Positions 7 through 22,243 of a stretch of 35,756 nt of DNA are shown piece after piece. Source of the DNA: Thermoproteota archaeon (lineage in GTDB: Archaea > Thermoproteota > Methanomethylicia > Methanomethylicales > Methanomethylicaceae). Positions within the stretch are counted from its first letter, which is position 1; each line of letters starts with the position of its first letter. The DNA lies in NCBI GenBank assembly GCA_016882195.1, contig VGLU01000011.1:1-35756 (forward strand). Reading direction: 5' to 3'. The translations under genes and the position numbers were made by a program. The notes under the pieces were generated by a model that saw nothing but the letters and a program-made list of their open reading frames with translations, had not been told where the DNA came from and did not search any database.

Positions 7-112
7 TGGCGCCGCGGGAAGGACTCGAACCTTCGGCCATTCCCCGTCCAGGAGAGGTCTCCTGAACTACGGGTTAACAGCCCGTCGCTCTACCGAACTG
101 AGCTACCGCGGC
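7..112 (-). tRNA. tRNA-Asn (GUU) with a non-canonical intron
   Basis: On the minus strand a perfect 7-bp acceptor stem (106-112 with 11-17), D arm, anticodon stem ACGGG/CCCGT with loop CTGTTAA (anticodon GTT) and T arm GAAGG-TTCGAGT-CCTTC can be drawn. Discriminator G is at position 10 and an encoded CCA at 7-9. Between the anticodon stem and the T stem lie 34 nt instead of about 5. Removing 29 nt leaves the variable loop AGGCC, close to the AGGTC I recall for archaeal tRNA-Asn. The excess folds as CAGGAG-ACCT-CTCCTG and contains ACGGG, which could compete for the CCCGT strand of the anticodon stem. The anticodon loop itself is uninterrupted, so the intron lies in the variable region. The exact splice sites are inferred. 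Confidence 0.9.
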
Positions 113-5603: not shown

Positions 5604-6521
5604 ATGCGCATTCTTGTTACCGGCGGTGCGGGCTTCATAGGCAGTCACCTCGCCGAGGCGCTCGTAGGACGCGGGCACGACGTAGTGGTTCTGGACGACC
5701 TGAGCACGGGAAAGAAGGAGAACCTCGCCGAGGCGCTTCGCCAGATAGAGTTCGTGGAGGGCGACATACGAGAAGACGGTGTGGTCAAGAAGGCATTAAG
5801 GGACATCGAGGCGGTCGCGCACCTGGCCGCCCTGATAAGCGTAAACGAATCGATGAAGAAGCCCCTCCTCTATCACGATGTCAACTCCATGGGAACGCTG
5901 AGGCTCCTCCAGCACTCGCTGAAGAGCGGCGTGAAGAGGTTCGTCCTGACCTCGTCGTGCGCTGTCTACGGCGACCCGGCAAAGGTGCCGACAAGCGAGA
6001 CGGATCCAGTCGGTCCCCTCTCGGTGTACGCCGCTAGCAAACTCTCAGCGGAGGAGTACTGCAGGACCTACGACGGCACAGGCGGCATGAGTGTTGCCGT
6101 ACTCCGCCTCTTCAACGTCTACGGGCCGAGGCAGACCTTCAGCCAGTACTCGGGCGTCATCATGCAGTTCGCCGAGAGGGTACGGAACGGCAAGCCACCC
6201 GTGATTTACGGCGACGGGAGACAGACCCGCGACTTCATATTCGTCAGAGACGTTGGGCGCTTCATAACCGCTGCCATCGAGACGGAGGCGAGCGGGACCT
6301 TCAACGTCGGAACAGGGAGATCAGTTACCATAAGACGGCTGGCGGCGGTCGTCCTGAACGTGATGGGCAGGGAAGACCTTAAACCCATATTTGCGCCTCC
6401 AAGGCCGGGCGACATTATGTACAGCGAGGCGGATATGTCACGAGCGGTTAAGGAACTTGGCATTAAGCCCGAGGTAGCCCTCAAGGAGGGCCTTAGAGAA
6501 ACGATCCCCCCTATCAGGTGA
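5604..6521 (+). CDS. NAD-dependent sugar-nucleotide epimerase/dehydratase
   Basis: Extended short-chain dehydrogenase of the UDP-glucose 4-epimerase type, probably making a nucleotide sugar for surface glycans. The N-terminal Rossmann motif is VTGGAGFIGSHLAEAL, with DDLSTGK after strand 2. The catalytic triad is represented by LTSSCAVYG (Ser) and YAASKLSAEEY (Tyr-x-x-x-Lys). LFNVYGPRQ and the C-terminal FNVGTGRSVTI are family signatures. An upstream in-frame GTG at 5595 would add three residues; ATG 5604 with AGTGAAGGG just before it looks better. The precise substrate is not determinable. Confidence 0.9.
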   Translation: MRILVTGGAGFIGSHLAEALVGRGHDVVVLDDLSTGKKENLAEALRQIEFVEGDIREDGVVKKALRDIEAVAHLAALISVNESMKKPLLYHDVNSMGTLRLLQHSLKSGVKRFVLTSSCAVYGDPAKVPTSETDPVGPLSVYAASKLSAEEYCRTYDGTGGMSVAVLRLFNVYGPRQTFSQYSGVIMQFAERVRNGKPPVIYGDGRQTRDFIFVRDVGRFITAAIETEASGTFNVGTGRSVTIRRLAAVVLNVMGREDLKPIFAPPRPGDIMYSEADMSRAVKELGIKPEVALKEGLRETIPPIR

Positions 6522-6544
6522 GCCATTGGCAGGAGGTGTGCACA

Positions 6545-6987
6545 ATGATATCCTCAAAACTCTATGAAAAGATAGTCGCGTCAATGCCCATCGCCAGCGT
6601 CGAGGCCATAGTGAAAGGGGACAGCCTCCTCATGATGAGAAGAAAAACAGCCCCGCCAAGGGGGGAGGGTGGTAGGGGCGGTGGTGGTGGTGGTGGTGGT
6701 GGCTCCCTGGCGGGACGGTTAGAAGAGGCGAAACCTTCGAGGGAACATTACTCCGCGAGGTAAATGAGGAGACGGGACTGGATGTGGACGTGGTGCGGTT
6801 CGTTGGCGTCTACAACAGGATATTTCCCGAGAGGCACGACATAACAATTGTCTACCTATGCCAGTGTAAAGATCAAAACGCTGAGGTAGCCACGGACAGT
6901 GAGCACTCTGAATACCGCTTCTTCAGGGAACTGCCGAGACTCCCCACGTACCTGCTCGAGAAGATCCGAGACTCTGGCTGGAAGTAA
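6545..6987 (+). pseudogene. Nudix hydrolase disrupted by a GGT repeat
   Basis: The first part reads ASVEAIVKGDSLLMMRRK, then TAPPRGE, in one frame. The rest is in another frame, beginning LPGG and continuing through the Nudix box GETFEGTLLREVNEETGL and VVRFVGVYNRIFPERHD. In homologues (GDP-mannose hydrolase-like Nudix proteins) PPRGE is followed directly by WWLPGG. Here 35 nt separate GAG (6665-6667) from the CTC of LPGG, where 6 are expected, so 29 nt of GGT-rich sequence have been gained and the frame is lost. A good Shine-Dalgarno AGGAGGTG precedes ATG 6545. Either a pseudogene, a phase-variable gene or an assembly error. Confidence 0.8.
6680..6702 (+). repeat. (GGT)7 microsatellite inside the Nudix gene
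   Basis: Seven GGT units run from 6680 to 6700 and end in GG, preceded by the imperfect GGTGGTAGGGGC. In the downstream reading frame the tract reads as TGG (Trp) codons, consistent with expansion from the two Trp codons of the family WWLPGG motif. Confidence 0.85.
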
Positions 6988-7073
6988 AGTAACCATCTAA
7001 TGATAGTCGTTTGACCTCGCGCAATTTTGCTACTAGATCTTGGACCAAGCCCCTCCACTGACTTTGTCGTATG

Positions 7074-7463
7074 TCATATCATCTCGACACTTGGCAGGTT
7101 CTTGAAATGTTCATCACCTGTCACCAGTACCTTCTGTTTAGATCGCGACGAAGCATAAACAATTGCATCGACCGTGTGAAGGGCATCTCTCTGCTTTACA
7201 GCTGCGGCATCTAGGGCCATACTCGCGCTGGTCTCGATTATATAACTCCTGTCGAGGATGAACTCGATCCTCTCCTTAGATTCCTTTCCCTCCCTCAGAT
7301 ACTTGAAGGCGATCTCAGTCAGACAGATCGAGGGAGTGTAGATCGGCGTCCGTCCGTCCACGTACTCCTTGACCCTCTTTGCCCTTCCTCCCCCTTTGAA
7401 ATACTCGATCCATGCGAAGGAATCAAAGACCTTTGCGCTACTGCTCATGCGGCTCATCCTCAT
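7074..7463 (-). CDS. vapC: VapC-type PIN-domain toxin
   Basis: PIN-domain ribonuclease of a type II toxin-antitoxin pair. The 129-residue protein shows the acidic active-site pattern: Asp in KVFDSFAWIEYF, Glu in CLTEIAFKYL, Asp in LHTVDAIVYASS and Asp in LVTGDEHFKNL. Its start overlaps the 3' end of the antitoxin gene by 26 nt; an internal start at MSSSAKVFDS is possible. The targeted RNA is unknown. The second PIN protein in this window (11986) shares the overall plan but is not a close copy. Confidence 0.88.
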   Translation of the reverse strand: MRMSRMSSSAKVFDSFAWIEYFKGGGRAKRVKEYVDGRTPIYTPSICLTEIAFKYLREGKESKERIEFILDRSYIIETSASMALDAAAVKQRDALHTVDAIVYASSRSKQKVLVTGDEHFKNLPSVEMI

Positions 7464-7647
7464 CCCTCAGGCCCTCCGTGGTAAGCCAGGGATCCACCCC
7501 AAACATGCTCCGCTTGGGCTTGAAGAGTTCCTTCTCCAGGATCTCATTTACCGCCGAGGACAACCGGCGCCGCCCCGCCTTCTTTATGAGGCGCTCGTAT
7601 ACCTCCTCCTTCAATAACAGTGTCGTCTTTACCGGCAATACGGTCAC
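7438..7647 (-). CDS. vapB: VapB-type antitoxin
   Basis: 69-residue partner of the PIN toxin. The N-terminal part (TTLLLKEEVYERLIKKAG, then LSSAVNEILEKEL) looks like a ribbon-helix-helix DNA-binding domain, expected to dimerise and repress its own promoter. The C-terminal tail contains SMFGVDPWLTTEGL, a likely toxin-binding segment; the same MFGVD occurs in the antitoxin at 11786. The gene precedes and overlaps vapC. AT-rich promoter-like sequence (TATATGTACA on the plus strand) lies just upstream. Confidence 0.75.
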   Translation of the reverse strand: MTVLPVKTTLLLKEEVYERLIKKAGRRRLSSAVNEILEKELFKPKRSMFGVDPWLTTEGLRDEDEPHEQ

Positions 7648-7779
7648 CGTATATGTACACCGTAGACCATCTAATAACGTTTTCTAGCCTCCCATAACAA
7701 AAGGAGGACATAAAAATACGCGCAATGAACCGTTGCTGGCTGGATGTGCGCATCTCAACTTTATTGCCAGCAGGGCGTC

Positions 7780-7893
7780 TCATTTCTCGAGCTTTATTGG
7801 ATCTACCCTTTCAGCCCAATCCGCGCTATCAAAGTCGGGGTCGGCCGGGAGGATGCGCTTGACCCTCATCTCCTCGTGCAGAAGGACGGGCGT
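7780..7893 (-). pseudogene. Possible PIN-domain C-terminal remnant
   Basis: The minus strand reads LLHEEMRVKRILPADPDFD followed by SADWAERVDPIKLEK and a stop. This resembles the last third of PIN-domain proteins, where an Asp-containing strand is followed by a W-x-R-x-D tail. There is a stop immediately upstream in frame and no start, so only a fragment remains. Recognition is by pattern only. Confidence 0.4.
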
Positions 7894-8056
7894 TCACCGA
7901 CTCCCTCCATCACCAGCAGAACCTCTGGTGCCGAGCCGGGCGCGTTCCAACCTCCCCAGCCCGAAGTCCAGGGCTTCCCGCCGAAATAGTTAAGGAAGTT
8001 GTACCAGCTCGGCTCCTTCAGGGAAAGTGACGGACTTTTATTTGGTGCAACATGAT
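7866..8056 (-). pseudogene. Unrecognised coding remnant
   Basis: An open frame on the minus strand, running out of the tRNA-derived repeat, reads SWYNFLNYFGGKPWTSGWGG and then WNAPGSAPEVLLVMEG. The strongly biased, aromatic-rich composition looks like real protein, but I do not recognise the family. There is no proper start: the frame begins inside the tRNA fragment. It overlaps the PIN-like remnant. The rest of 7650-8083 shows nothing else I can support. Confidence 0.3.
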
Positions 8057-8083
8057 CTGGGGGCTTTATAGGAAGTCCGAGAG

Positions 8084-8129
8084 GTGGCGCCCCGACCGGG
8101 ATTTGAACCCGGGTCACTGACTCGACAGG
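8084..8129 (-). repeat. Truncated copy of the tRNA-Asp 3' half (putative att site)
   Basis: Forty-six bases are identical to 9670-9715, the 3' end of tRNA-Asp, and include the CCA complement, acceptor strand, T arm, variable loop and part of the anticodon arm. A weaker match (CTCTAGAC) continues beyond a small gap. The 5' half of the tRNA is missing. It has the same orientation as the intact gene, as expected of the distal att site left by an element that integrated into tRNA-Asp. Confidence 0.88.
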
Positions 8130-8153
8130 ACTCTAGACTGCGTTGTTGCAGGC

Positions 8154-8588
8154 TCATGTCCCCCATCTCTTTAGGTAAGCCCTAATCCTGCCCACAACAA
8201 ACTTGGCGTTGTCCACCACTGCCCTTCCCATCTCCAGGCTGTAGTAGTCCATAGGCGTCACCCACCTGCCAGCCACCTTGAGGGGGTAGCGGGAGTATAC
8301 AACCTCCCTCTGTATCTCCCTGCCTTTCTCGATCAACTGCGAGAATTCCTCATCCCCCAGCAACTCCGGCCTCGTCCTCCTCACGACCGCAACCAGGCCG
8401 CTGATAGCTCTGTGATCCTTTGCCTCGTCGCCACCGAGGACGAGAATCATCGCATTCGCGGCACTCTCTGCGGCGATCGAGGCATGATATACTGCGGCAT
8501 CGTACTCGCCGGTATCAAGGCGCCTCTCTGCCCGGGCGAGGTTCGCCTCGGAGACCCTCAACAGTGCCTCTATCTTGCTCTCAGCCAT
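8154..8588 (-). CDS. HEPN-domain protein (HepT-like toxin partner)
   Basis: 144-residue helical HEPN protein: EANLARAERRLDTGEYDAAV, then YHASIAAESAANAMILVLGG, matches the HEPN helical core. The later REVVYSRYPL stretch sits where the Arg-containing active-site motif of HEPN nucleases is normally found. It overlaps the 3' end of the nucleotidyltransferase gene by 19 nt. In characterised HepT/MntA pairs the HEPN protein is an RNase toxin neutralised by AMPylation; whether that holds here is inference. It ends only 25 bp from the putative att repeat. Confidence 0.82.
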   Translation of the reverse strand: MAESKIEALLRVSEANLARAERRLDTGEYDAAVYHASIAAESAANAMILVLGGDEAKDHRAISGLVAVVRRTRPELLGDEEFSQLIEKGREIQREVVYSRYPLKVAGRWVTPMDYYSLEMGRAVVDNAKFVVGRIRAYLKRWGT

Positions 8589-9331: not shown

Positions 9332-9603
9332 GAAGCCCCCGGCTTCAGTCGTGGGGATGAATGGTGCAAGGTTTATGGGCTAACATGTTGATGAATATAG
9401 GGGCATCAACAAATGGAATACAGGTACTCTCGGGGTGCAAAGCCTGTGAAATCGAGGCGCACCGAGACGTGGTTGGAGCCTTGAACATAGGTGCCGTCCA
9501 CAAGGGAGGGCACGTAAACGGGGCGATGGCGCACCCCTTGGAGGCCTGCGTGAAGGTATGAGCCTCCAAGAATCCCCGCGCTTTAGCACAGGGGAGCGTC
9601 AAA
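9332..9603 (+). mobile_element. Internally deleted IS200/IS605-type element
   Basis: A left-end-like hairpin (GAAGCCCCCGGCTTCAGTCG and following GTGGGGAT, 9332-9357) and a right-end-like hairpin (AATCCCCGCGCTTTAGCACA followed by GGGG, 9571-9594) flank only the last part of a tnpB gene. About 270 bp in all, without a tnpA transposase: a miniature, non-autonomous derivative. Confidence 0.6.
9361..9561 (+). pseudogene. TnpB 3' fragment
   Basis: The open frame ends ACEIEAHRDVVGALNIGAVH, which corresponds to the C-terminal part of IS605 OrfB/TnpB: the zinc-finger remnant GCKAC and the last RuvC acidic residue in HRDVVGALNI. The stop is directly followed by the right-end hairpin, as in intact elements. 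The N-terminal two-thirds of the nuclease are absent, so it is non-functional. The ATG at 9361 is accidental. Confidence 0.75.
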
Positions 9604-9670
9604 GAACCATCCGCTCAGCTAGATGTGGCGGAGCCGGGAGACAGGCCAGAATGACCTTAAAAGATCGAAG

Positions 9671-9748
9671 TGGCGCCCCGACCGGGATTTGAACCCGGGT
9701 CACTGACTCGACAGGCCAGTATTCTAGACCGGACTATACTATCGGGGC
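9671..9748 (-). tRNA. tRNA-Asp (GUC)
   Basis: Minus-strand cloverleaf: acceptor GCCCCGA/TCGGGGC, anticodon stem CTGGC/GTCAG (one G-U pair) with loop CTGTCGA (anticodon GTC), T arm CCGGG-TTCAAAT-CCCGG, discriminator G at 9674 and an encoded CCA at 9671-9673. No intron. Its 3' half is repeated at 8084-8129. Confidence 0.93.
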
Positions 9749-9795
9749 ACGCCTTCGTCTCTCTTTTTGTCTGCGTTATTTAACCCTTCCGCCGA

Positions 9796-9826
9796 GAAGT
9801 CCCCTTCCGCAAGGGAGGGGATGAGA
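9796..9826 (+). repeat. Left-end-like hairpin of a second IS605-type element
   Basis: GAAGTCCCCTTCCGCAAGGG followed by AGGGGATGAG folds as CCCTT-CCGC-AAGGG or as CCCC/GGGG. It resembles the hairpin at 9332 and precedes the zinc-ribbon ORF and tnpB 5' fragment, so it is probably the left end of that element. No matching right end is seen. Confidence 0.45.
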
Positions 9827-9867
9827 GGCGGTACATATATATTACTCTAAAGTATAACCTATAAGTA

Positions 9868-9996
9868 ATGATAAAAATAACCTTGCTGAAGTGCAAAAGG
9901 TGCGGACACGAGTGGTATCCTAGAAGCCCAGAGAAGCCGAGAATATGTCCGAAATGCAAATCACCGTACTGGGATAGGGAGAGAAGACATGCTTAG
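9868..9996 (+). CDS. 42-residue zinc-ribbon protein upstream of tnpB
   Basis: ATG 9868 opens a 42-codon frame: MIKITLLKCKRCGHEWYPRS and, further on, RICPKCKSPYWDRERR. Two CxxC pairs (CKRC and CPKC) form a rubredoxin-like zinc ribbon. The stop overlaps the tnpB ATG (8-nt overlap), so the two were translated together. I recall similar tiny zinc-ribbon ORFs next to archaeal tnpB and toxin-antitoxin genes, but their role is unclear. AT-rich promoter-like sequence (TACATATATATTACTC) lies upstream. Confidence 0.7.
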   Translation: MIKITLLKCKRCGHEWYPRSPEKPRICPKCKSPYWDRERRHA

Positions 9997-10410
9997 CTAC
10001 AAGTTCCGCATCTACCCGTCGAAAACGGTTCAGGCTAAACTGCTGGAACACCTTGAGCTTTGCAGGTGGCTCTACAACCGCCTGCTTTCGGAGCTGAGTC
10101 TCACAAGGGAAAAGGGGATAAAGCTCAGGCGGGGTGATACCCAAGCACTCATCGTTGACCTGAAGAAACACGAGAAGCCCGAGCTGAACGGAGTGTATTC
10201 AAAAGTTCTCCAGATGATCAACTACCAGCTCTGGTCTAATATCCACGCTCTTGCGGGGCTGAAGCACAACGGCAGGAAAATCGGGAAGTTCAGGTTCAAA
10301 GGGCAGGGCTGGTTCAAGACCATCAACTACAACCAGTCGGGGTTCAGGCTCGAAGGCGGGAAGCTCGTGCTCTCGAAGATAGGCGAAATTCATATCAAGC
10401 TCCACCGAGA
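9989..10410 (+). pseudogene. TnpB 5' fragment (IS605 OrfB)
   Basis: N-terminal part of TnpB: LSYKFRIYPSKTVQAKLLEH, then LELCRWLYNRLLSEL, and later GKFRFKGQGWFKTINYNQSG. Homology stops at about EIHIKLHRE; the frame then runs into the promoter of the protease gene and ends at 10453. The RuvC nuclease domain and right end are missing. It cannot be rejoined with the 3' fragment at 9361, which lies upstream in the same orientation, so at least two elements or a rearrangement are involved. Confidence 0.8.
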
Positions 10411-10420
10411 AATTTTATTA
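10411..10420 (+). promoter_or_regulatory. TATA box of the HtrA-like gene
   Basis: AATTTTATTA lies 35-44 bp before ATG 10455, placing transcription start near 10440 and giving a short leader without an obvious Shine-Dalgarno sequence. Confidence 0.5.
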
Positions 10421-10454
10421 GCCTTAGAAGTGATTTCATTTGTGTGGGTCTAAT

Positions 10455-11648
10455 ATGACCGAGCAGCCCCGTGGCAACTCCCTCCGCACAGTGTCCTTTC
10501 TTCTCATTGCCTTTGTCATAGGCGCGTACGTCGGGTACGCCCTCTACTCCTACAACACCCAGCCAACCATCTCCACGCTGAACGCAAGGGTGGGCGCGCT
10601 GGAGGGGCAGGTGGCAGGGCTCCAGTCGCAGCTGTCGGACCTGCAGACCAGGAACGCCACCCTTGCCGGAGCCAGCCTCAACGCCCTCTATGAGCAGGTG
10701 AAGGACTCCGTGGTCATGATAAAGGGCCTCATCCCATCCACAAACATCCTTGGTCAGACCACATACAGCGAGGTCCTCGGCTCGGGCTTCGTAATCTCGC
10801 ATAACGAGACCCGGCTGGTGGTGACCAACTTCCACGTGGTGGACGGCATGGTTAACGGCTCCATGGCATTCCTGGACGGCGATGCCTACCCGTTCCAAGT
10901 GCTGGGCAAGGATATGTACAGTGACCTTGCGGTCCTTCTTCCGCTGGCTCCAGACAATAAGCTTAAGCCCCTTACCGTCGTCTCCTCGGAGACCCTCCGC
11001 GTGGGCGACCAGGTGGTTGCGGTGGGCAACCCATACGGGCTAGAGTCGACGCTGACCTCTGGAATAGTGAGCGCGCTTGGGAGGTCTATCCAGACCACCT
11101 CGGGCAACTACCTCATATCGGGCGTGATACAGACCAGCGCCCCGATAAACCCAGGCAACTCGGGAGGCCCCCTCATCGACATTTTCGGAAGGGTCGTGGG
11201 GATAACCAGCGCCATCCTGAGCGGCTCGCAGAACTTGGGCTTCGCCATCCCCTCTGACACGGTGATAAGGGCGCTACCGGATTTAATATCAAAGGGCAGC
11301 TACAGCCACCCGTACTTGGGGGTGACCGGTGTCTCCGTTGACTACATCATCGCGAACGCCATCGGGCTGAACTATACCTACGGTGTGCTCGTCCAGAGCG
11401 TCGTCAGGGACGGTCCTGCAGACCGGGCCGGAATGAGGGCTGGCACCCAGCTGGTCACCATCGTTGGGCAGCAGATCTACGCCGGCGGTGACCTGATAGT
11501 CGGCATAGGCTCCGATAGGATCAAGACCATGGACGACCTCTCCTCTTACCTAGCGGTGCACTCGGTGCCGGGCCAGACCGTGATCTTCACCGTGGTAAGG
11601 GACGGCAGCACGCTGACGCTGGCCGTGGTGATTGGGATAAGGCCCTGA
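10455..11648 (+). CDS. Membrane-anchored HtrA/DegP-like serine protease with PDZ domain
   Basis: Trypsin-fold protease expected to act outside the membrane in quality control. From ATG 10455 (397 aa): a transmembrane anchor at about 13-32 (TVSFLLIAFVIGAYVGYALY), then a short coiled coil (about 40-70, VGALEGQVAGLQSQLSDLQ). The catalytic domain has His127 (TNFHVVDG), Asp157 (DMYSDLAVL) and Ser236 (PINPGNSGGPL). A C-terminal PDZ domain spans about 285-395. A GTG at 10440 is also in frame but falls at the predicted transcription start. Substrates are unknown. Confidence 0.93.
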   Translation: MTEQPRGNSLRTVSFLLIAFVIGAYVGYALYSYNTQPTISTLNARVGALEGQVAGLQSQLSDLQTRNATLAGASLNALYEQVKDSVVMIKGLIPSTNILGQTTYSEVLGSGFVISHNETRLVVTNFHVVDGMVNGSMAFLDGDAYPFQVLGKDMYSDLAVLLPLAPDNKLKPLTVVSSETLRVGDQVVAVGNPYGLESTLTSGIVSALGRSIQTTSGNYLISGVIQTSAPINPGNSGGPLIDIFGRVVGITSAILSGSQNLGFAIPSDTVIRALPDLISKGSYSHPYLGVTGVSVDYIIANAIGLNYTYGVLVQSVVRDGPADRAGMRAGTQLVTIVGQQIYAGGDLIVGIGSDRIKTMDDLSSYLAVHSVPGQTVIFTVVRDGSTLTLAVVIGIRP

Positions 11649-20359: not shown

Positions 20360-20656
20360 ATGGATCTCTCAAAAGAACTCAAGGTAGCCTTGAACACTGG
20401 CAAGGTGGAGATCGGATACAAGGTCAGTCTCAAGATAGCGAGCAAAAAGAAGGCCAAACTGATAGTCGTGGCATCCAACGCGCCGGAGAGTCTATTCGTA
20501 AAGGTGAAGCAGGCTGCGGGTTCTGAGGTTCCGATATACAAGTACCCCGGCTCAAGCTGGGATCTAGGCGGCATCTGCGGCAAGCCATTCCCAGTCTCCA
20601 CGATCACGATCATCGACCCAGGCGAGTCCGCGATCCTTAAGGTCCAGGAGGGATAA
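20360..20656 (+). CDS. rpl30e: Ribosomal protein L30e
   Basis: 98-residue large-subunit protein of the L7Ae/L30e fold that binds kink-turn RNA. Visible are LSKELKVALNTGKVEIGYKV and AKLIVVASNAPESL, then YKYPGSSWDLGGICGKPFPV. Position between rpoA2 and nusA is the conserved archaeal arrangement. The 3' end contains AGGAGGGA, which also serves as Shine-Dalgarno for nusA. Confidence 0.96.
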   Translation: MDLSKELKVALNTGKVEIGYKVSLKIASKKKAKLIVVASNAPESLFVKVKQAAGSEVPIYKYPGSSWDLGGICGKPFPVSTITIIDPGESAILKVQEG

Positions 20657-20659
20657 GGC

Positions 20660-21094
20660 GTTCCTGCAATAAGGTTCACGGCAGACGAGATGCGATTTAT
20701 AGCCCTTCTAGAGAACCTCACGGGGGCTATCGCGAAGGACTGCGTCGTCGAGTCGGAGGGCAACAGGATCATATTTGTCATACGCCCTGGCGACATGGGG
20801 CTCGCCATCGGCAGGAACGGCATGAACATAGAGAGGGCGAGGAAGGTCATCGGCAGGAACGTCGAGATCGTGGAGTATGCCGAGACTCCTGAGGAATTTC
20901 TCAAGAATATCGTTGCCCCCGCCAAGGTCAGGGGAATAAAGATAACCAAAAACTCGGAGGGCAACACCGTGGCTCAGGTGACGGTGGACCCCCACGACAA
21001 GGGCATGGCCATTGGCAAGAGCGGAAGGAACATTTCCAAGACTAGGCTCCTCATGAAGCGCCATTTTGATCTTAACAATGTTGTGATTGTGTAG
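20660..21094 (+). CDS. nusA: NusA-like KH-domain protein, apparent GTT start
   Basis: Short archaeal NusA: two KH domains only, with GDMGLAIGRNGMNIERARKV and HDKGMAIGKSGRNISKTRLL (GxxG loops GRNG and GKSG). It probably binds RNA in transcription elongation or antitermination. The first ATG is 20690, but the frame upstream encodes PAIRFTADE, which matches the family N-terminus (MPxIKLTxEE as I recall it). No ATG, GTG or TTG precedes it after the TAA at 20654. AGGAGGGA (20646-20653) is spaced 6 nt before GTT 20660, giving 144 aa. With the conventional ATG the protein would lack the first strand (134 aa) and have no Shine-Dalgarno. Confidence 0.9.
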   Translation, partial: VPAIRFTADEMRFIALLENLTGAIAKDCVVESEGNRIIFVIRPGDMGLAIGRNGMNIERARKVIGRNVEIVEYAETPEEFLKNIVAPAKVRGIKITKNSEGNTVAQVTVDPHDKGMAIGKSGRNISKTRLLMKRHFDLNNVVIV

Positions 21095-21226: not shown

Positions 21227-21670
21227 ATGGCCGGTTCAAAATCCCCAAGGGGCTTGCTTGCCGGAAGAAAGCTCAGCGAGAAGAGGAGGCGCTTCCGCTG
21301 GAGCCTGCGGCAGTTCAAGCGAAGGGAACTCAAGCTGGACGTGAAGGCAGACCCGCTCGAGGGCGCCCCGCAGGCCAGGGGTATCGTCCTCGAGAAGGTG
21401 GGTGTGGAGAGCAGGCAGCCCAACAGCGCGGTTAGGAAGTGCGCCAGGATCCAGCTCATCAAGAACGGCAAGCAGATCACCGCCTTCCTGCCCGGCGACG
21501 GCGCTCTCAACTTCGTGGATGAGCACGACGAGGTGATAGTGGAGGGGATAGGCGGTCCTATGGGGAAGGCACTGGGAGACCTCCCAGGAGTGAGATGGAA
21601 GGTCGTAAAGATCAACGGCGTTTCGCTCTACGCCCTCATGACAGGAAAGAAGCAGAAGCCCGTGAGGTGA
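21227..21670 (+). CDS. rps12: Ribosomal protein S12
   Basis: Decoding-centre protein of the small subunit. From ATG 21227 it has 147 residues beginning [20 protein letters not shown], like archaeal S12. The universally conserved loop is [20 protein letters not shown], followed by [23 protein letters not shown] lies 6 nt before ATG 21227. An in-frame GTG at 21191 would add a 12-residue extension that does not fit the family. Its TGA stop is part of the Shine-Dalgarno of rps7. Confidence 0.97.
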
Positions 21671-21676
21671 TGAGAG

Positions 21677-22243
21677 ACGTCCGAGATCAAGCTCTTCGGG
21701 AAGTGGGGCTCGTCCAACATCGAGATCAAGGATCTCGGTCTGAAAAATTACATCGCACTCTCATCGACGCTTATACCGCACTCCTGCGGAAGGCACGAGC
21801 ACAAGCGCTTCGGCAAGGCAAAAGTTAACATAGTCGAGAGGCTAGCGAACAGGGTCATGCGCCCCGGCAAGAGCGGGGGCAAGAAGGCCCTGGCGCTGAA
21901 CATAGTCGACGGCGCCCTCCAACTCATCAACCTCAAGACGGGCGAGAACCCGCTACAGATCCTCGTCAGGGCGATCGAGCACTCCGCGCCTAGGGAGGAG
22001 GTCACGCGGATCAGCTACGGCGGTGTATCCTATCCACAGTCGGTGGACGCCTCCCCCCAGAGAAGGGTAGACCTTGCACTGAGGTTCATAACGGACGCCG
22101 CCAGGAACGCGTCCTTCAGCAGCAACAAGCCGATAGAGGAGTGTCTCGCCGAGGAGATAGTCCTTGCTGCGAGCAAGGATGCCAAGAGCTACGCCGTCCA
22201 GAAGAGGGAAGAGATCGAACGCATAGCCATATCCGCCAGGTAA
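21677..22243 (+). CDS. rps7: Ribosomal protein S7, apparent ACG start
   Basis: Small-subunit assembly protein. After the in-frame TGA at 21671 the reading frame runs E-T-SEIKLFGKWGSSNIEIKD and on through STLIPHSCGRHEHKRFGKAK to MRPGKSGGKKALAL. The KLFGKW and PHSxGRHExKRFGKAK segments are conserved in archaeal S7 but lie far upstream of the first ATG (21857). ACG 21677 would give (M)SEIKLFGKW, the expected N-terminus and 188 residues, and GAGGTGA (21664-21670) lies 6 nt before it. An out-of-frame ATG at 21670 would need a one-base deletion to read into S7, so a sequence error is the rival explanation. Confidence 0.93.
   Translation, partial: TSEIKLFGKWGSSNIEIKDLGLKNYIALSSTLIPHSCGRHEHKRFGKAKVNIVERLANRVMRPGKSGGKKALALNIVDGALQLINLKTGENPLQILVRAIEHSAPREEVTRISYGGVSYPQSVDASPQRRVDLALRFITDAARNASFSSNKPIEECLAEEIVLAASKDAKSYAVQKREEIERIAISAR

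Follow-up and report, generated by a model that had tools for sequence, protein, structure and literature searches.

An apparent ACG start codon for rps7, and further non-NTG starts, in the archaeal family Methanomethylicaceae

Bacterial infC starts at AUU, a codon that serves autoregulation by IF3. The essential gene considered here, rps7 (encoding ribosomal protein uS7) of a methanogen-related archaeon of the Methanomethylicaceae, resembles infC in serving translation and in lacking an NTG start, but differs in that the codon, known from sequence, is ACG and the organism an archaeon. It lies in a 35,756-nucleotide stretch of DNA, contig VGLU01000011.1 (the window), of a metagenome-assembled genome (MAG; G000) that comprises 1.45 Mb in 41 contigs, is 97% complete and was sampled as stretches totalling 782 kb. 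The named best relatives of G000 include Methanomethylicus and Methanosuratincola, and it is the sole member of its genus in the comparison set. ACG starts occur in eukaryotes and chloroplasts (cited in PMC9845219), and the likeness to those systems is that ACG serves as the start codon or stands in its place; scanning or RNA editing operates there, however, and not archaeal initiation driven by a Shine-Dalgarno (SD) sequence. Closer at hand are the overlapping gene pairs of archaea, in which termination-reinitiation has been described with standard starts (ATGA, TGATG) (Huber et al. 2019, PMC6728339). Here too an upstream stop adjoins or overlaps the start and the SD lies inside the upstream gene, and at one flavoprotein gene of G000 the junction has TGACG for TGATG, but some of the ACG genes reported below, such as that of an SMC-like ATPase, are uncoupled. 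In Sulfolobus, start selection is under the control of aIF1, which favours discrimination against non-canonical starts (PMC6237735, PMC8211752). G000 likewise possesses aIF1, but discrimination in this family is apparently leaky for some genes although the factor has not been lost. A 2020 review of archaeal initiation names only AUG, GUG and UUG starts (PMC7531240), and searches of the open-licence literature turned up no description of archaeal ACG starts. Non-AUG initiation is already known; conserved archaeal ACG starts are, as far as we found, apparently unreported.

It is very probable, judging by the layout of the site and its alignment with relatives, that the ACG at 21677-79 is the true rps7 start in G000 (Table 1). 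The window from 21660 to 21700 is CCGTGAGGTGATGAGAGACGTCCGAGATCAAG, and in the rps7 frame it reads AGG TGA (21668-70) TGA (21671-73) GAG ACG (21677-79) TCC GAG ATC AAG CTC TTC GGG. The product matches Ribosomal_S7 (PF00177, 8e-45), the uS7 domain, and homologues from the family, at 70-85% identity, align with it from about residue 2. A sequence-only reading of the window had proposed that the S7 N-terminus runs in frame back to the TGA at 21671 and that the first in-frame ATG comes 60 codons too late; both statements were borne out by direct reading, which found no ATG, GTG or TTG in this frame between the preceding stop and ATG 21857. Coding signal ahead of that ATG is strong. When codon usage was screened in 535 open reading frames (ORFs) from 818 kb of G000 to detect coding sequence ahead of the first canonical start, rps7 was the top outlier and stood far above the others, and comparison with the sister genome G003 showed the same residue at 47 of the 59 codons ahead of ATG 21857, 20 of these through synonymous codons. 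The gene is single-copy and intact, and belongs to an rps12-rps7-EF1A cluster with the order nusA-rps12-rps7-EF1A-rps10. In G000 rps12 and rps7 share one frame, with two TGAs between them, and 6 nt separate the rps12 stop from the ACG.

Aligned with the ACG, the sister genomes have ATG (G003, G002, G013 and G006), TTG (genus g5) or GTG (G008), and the residues that follow are the same or similar; in genera g2 and g6 the N-terminus is a few residues longer or shorter. Because the sister start codons fall on the ACG column, the rps7 initiation site is well fixed and the oddity is limited to the codon. The sequence-only reading had held that an ordinary start at this column in sister genomes would speak against an ACG start. 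Taken literally that is what the sisters display, but the comparison fixes the position of the start and leaves the ACG itself unchanged. Its placement of the start at 21677 was thus confirmed by the match in position to the sister starts as well as by direct reading, and its interpretation of the codon as a true ACG start gains support from the sister column and from the other ACG starts, described below, in independently assembled genomes of the family.

The SD of rps7 is unusually extensive. The motif GAGGTGA had been placed 6 nt upstream of the ACG, where it does occur, and the perfect match to 16S rRNA extends to GAGGTGAT, leaving a spacer of 5 nt; the 3' end of the 16S rRNA of G000 is GGATCACCTCCTA, with which all 8 nt pair. 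Among 128 canonical-start genes of G000 sampled for SD statistics, runs of at least 8 nt were found in 1.6% and runs of at least 7 nt in 3%; rps7 has 8 and the aTrm56 gene, discussed below, has 7. No RNA hairpin was detected at the rps7 start (z = +0.8).

The use of ACG would not be confined to rps7. The gene encoding the SMC-like ATPase (L135:6840-8597:-) has ACG in G000, G003, G002, G008 and G013, representing genera g1, g3 and g4, whereas g5, g2, g6 and g7 have ATG there; no NTG lies between the ACG and the preceding in-frame stop of G000 and G008. On a tree built on rps7, rps12, EF1A and the SMC-like protein, some internal supports of which are low, this distribution corresponds to one gain before the g1/g4/g3/g2 split and a reversion in g2. 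Similarly, the aTrm56 gene (L122:16977-17525:-) reads AAGGAGGTAAAAAT-ACG in G000, the ACG standing behind AGGAGGT, and the codon recurs at this column in G011 and G006 (g7), G014 (g5) and G002 (g3), all of which have a G-rich SD. No NTG option is left in G011 and G006, where TAA occurs in frame just 5' of the SD. Elsewhere aTrm56 has GTG (G003), TTG (g2) or an ATG nearby (g6), the exceptions being G013, where ACG is one codon off, and G008, which has ACA and then ATG two codons later; the ACG of this gene is found on both sides of the earliest branching in the family tree, subject to the same low supports. The flavoprotein gene (L115:18933-19748:+) carries its TGACG over the upstream stop in G000, where G003, G014 and G017 have TGATG, and a CTG one codon upstream of the ACG is a possible alternative start. 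A further candidate ACG, with a poor SD, is found in an MFS transporter gene (L124:8504-9724:-); another, at L118, was rejected, as ATG GTG lies just upstream. The position of these codons, their SDs, their conservation and their recurrence across genomes are read directly from the sequences. Because independent MAGs have ACG starts in common, sequencing error is a poor general explanation, and ACG starts appear to be real in the Methanomethylicaceae.

Other codons seem to be used as well. The nusA-like gene of the rps12-rps7 cluster reads AGGAGGGATAAGGC-GTT-CCT-GCA-ATA-AGG around its apparent GTT start in G000. Many outgroups have ATG, GTG or TTG at the start column, followed by Pro, which is present in most homologues, while in the Methanomethylicales the column holds GTT, TTT, TTC, TTA, ATA or ATT, varying between genera, with TTG in g6 and g7. 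The stretch from this column to the internal ATG 20690 is conserved with mostly synonymous changes and is therefore translated. NTG is missing here from five genera and also from a sister family, and the codon itself is unstable; this may mean that selection keeps the start weak, a possible regulatory use. The gene that follows the SMC-like ATPase (L135:6053-6856:-), for which no Pfam match was found, has a CTG start in almost every genome of the family and TTG in g7; G003 has an ATT start in one gene and a CTG start in another, where G006 has ATG/TTG; and in the class II amidotransferase-like gene of G000 an ATC precedes the Cys expected right after Met. A large conserved gene was also seen with an apparent ATT start behind GGAGG in L230 (G006, ~9403-11554) and L206 (G003, ~6043-8308). 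A conserved-coding screen of G000, reported in a filtered version that replaced versions crowded with antisense and rRNA-derived ORFs, had 445 testable ORFs, 15 of which showed conserved coding ahead of the first canonical start. About half of these 15 were credible on hand inspection (~2%), a rough figure in which antisense-ORF false positives remain. Roughly, then, a small set of Methanomethylicaceae genes (~2% of those testable) would start at ACG, CTG, ATT, ATC or other non-NTG codons.

Several observations weigh against an ACG start. The SMC-like gene has only a weak SD (GGTG) and is uncoupled, and in G003, G002 and G013 it has an in-frame TTG 5 to 9 codons upstream, so that in these three genomes the ACG is not the sole candidate start. 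For rps7 itself, the other family members start with NTG and nothing demands ACG here, and the codon is known from a single MAG, the lone representative of its genus in the comparison. It could be argued from the latter point that the ACG reflects a base-call, assembly or consensus error, the real codon being ATG with its T read as C, or the sequence having one base fewer, which would join ATG 21670 to S7. The change from ATG to ACG needs one transition only, and a one-base deletion would give M-R-D-S-E-I-K, similar in length to the MSQTEIK of genus g2. It should be emphasized, however, that there is no homopolymer at the site, that both flanking frames are intact, and that G000 has several other ACG starts, two of them common to independent assemblies, which raises the prior for a true ACG. 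The ATG at 21670, moreover, appears badly placed for initiation because it lies inside the SD, only 2 nt after GAGG, compared with a corresponding spacing of about 6 in the sisters. We regard an error as unlikely.

Even less probable is that S7 is made from another start, whether from ATG 21670 followed by a +1 shift, from a codon further on such as ATC 21686, by ribosomes that read through both TGAs after S12, or from ATG 21857 with a truncated product. The TGATG at the junction is a classic coupled overlap (PMC6728339) and rps7 keeps the frame of rps12, but the frame of ATG 21670, open to 21828, has no recognisable shift signal; readthrough must pass two tandem stops, and rps7 is out of frame with rps12 in close sisters; initiation at ATG 21857 drops 60 residues, a segment with 80% identity to its sister counterpart; and the SD spacing suits the ACG. 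In chloroplasts RNA editing converts ACG at the start of genes into AUG (PMC9845219), and a similar C-to-U editing of the rps7 mRNA before translation would make AUG from ACG. While ACG is the codon expected under such editing, the nusA, CTG, ATT and ATC starts of the same family are beyond repair by C-to-U, and this explanation seems the most improbable of those considered. Editing of this C-to-U kind is not known to us from archaeal mRNAs.

If rps7 does start at ACG, ribosomes ending S12 at the TGA at 21668-70, or 30S subunits arriving at the SD GAGGTGAT, would be held at the site with the ACG in the P site, 5 nt downstream of the SD. We infer that the ordinary CAU initiator tRNA would then start on ACG, with a single mismatch at the middle base, and insert Met as the first residue, the strong SD and coupling to S12 termination assisting initiation. 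The initiator tRNA of G000 is of the normal CAU type, with A1:U72, G-C pairs in the anticodon stem and, in addition, an intron; a tRNA-Thr(CGU) gene of ordinary appearance was also found. An unusual initiator tRNA and the loss of aIF1 were both considered as causes and rejected: since the initiator is CAU-type and aIF1 is present, neither a changed anticodon nor a lost fidelity factor explains the pattern. The strong SD would be a visible compensation at rps7 and aTrm56. The rps7, nusA and flavoprotein genes start at, or a few nucleotides from, an upstream stop, and rps7, with its SD in the upstream gene and its short stop-to-start distance, is arranged as in coupled pairs, so coupling is predicted. 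SD strength and coupling do not explain everything, because the SMC-like gene has neither. As aIF1 favours discrimination in Sulfolobus, leaky discrimination in this family is a testable idea. In the Methanomethylicales examined, the aIF1 gene (SUI1; L271 and family loci among L255-L279) appears to have a TTG start, in contrast to the ATG of several further orders in the class; the start-selection factor may itself be weakly initiated. More tentatively, and with somewhat more doubt than confidence, we suggest that start-codon discrimination may be generally relaxed in the order Methanomethylicales, with a lasting small set of ACG, CTG, ATT, ATC and even two-mismatch starts (nusA GTT, TTT, TTC and TTA) placed by SD or reinitiation.

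The features on which this account draws are collected in Table 1. One intron-containing tRNA lies near the ends of two contigs (window 10-112 and G000:C33:1073-1175), probably an assembly repeat.

Table 1. Coordinates of the rps7 start region and associated features (window positions unless a locus is named)
Feature	Position	Strand	Remarks
rps7 (uS7) coding sequence read from ACG	21677..22243	+	188 codons; TAA stop 22241-22243; Pfam Ribosomal_S7
rps7 ACG start codon (probable)	21677..21679	+	aligned to ATG/TTG/GTG of sister genera
rps7 SD GAGGTGAT	21664..21671	+	perfect complement of 16S 3' end ATCACCTC; overlaps rps12 stop
rps12 (uS12), upstream of rps7	21227..21670	+	homology; AGGTG...ATG start conserved in relatives; TGA stop 21668-21670
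Second in-frame TGA, between rps12 and rps7	21671..21673	+	direct reading
Out-of-frame ATG (TGATG overlap), rival rps7 start inside SD	21670..21672	+	direct reading; absent in sister genera
First in-frame ATG of rps7 frame	21857..21859	+	60 codons downstream of ACG
nusA-like gene, rps12-rps7 cluster	20660..21094	+	apparent start GTT (20660-62), not ATG 20690; KH/NusA domains
nusA SD AGGAGG	20646..20651	+	8 nt before GTT
Initiator tRNA gene	L124 about 9838-9931	-	short intron after anticodon; ARAGORN reads four-base anticodon

Prokaryote gene finders accept ATG, GTG and TTG, and translation table 11 is without ACG as a start. Because ACG is omitted in this way, genes that start with it are truncated or lost in annotation, and S7 here would be 60 residues short. 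As related genomes have retained ACG at the start of other genes through long evolutionary times, the rps7 ACG looks like a codon that is genuinely used for initiation and that gene finders ignore. Conserved ACG starts would constitute a natural test of start-codon choice by archaeal ribosomes with eukaryote-like aIF1/aIF1A/aIF2, and may also probe whether a strong SD or reinitiation offsets imperfect codon-anticodon pairing.
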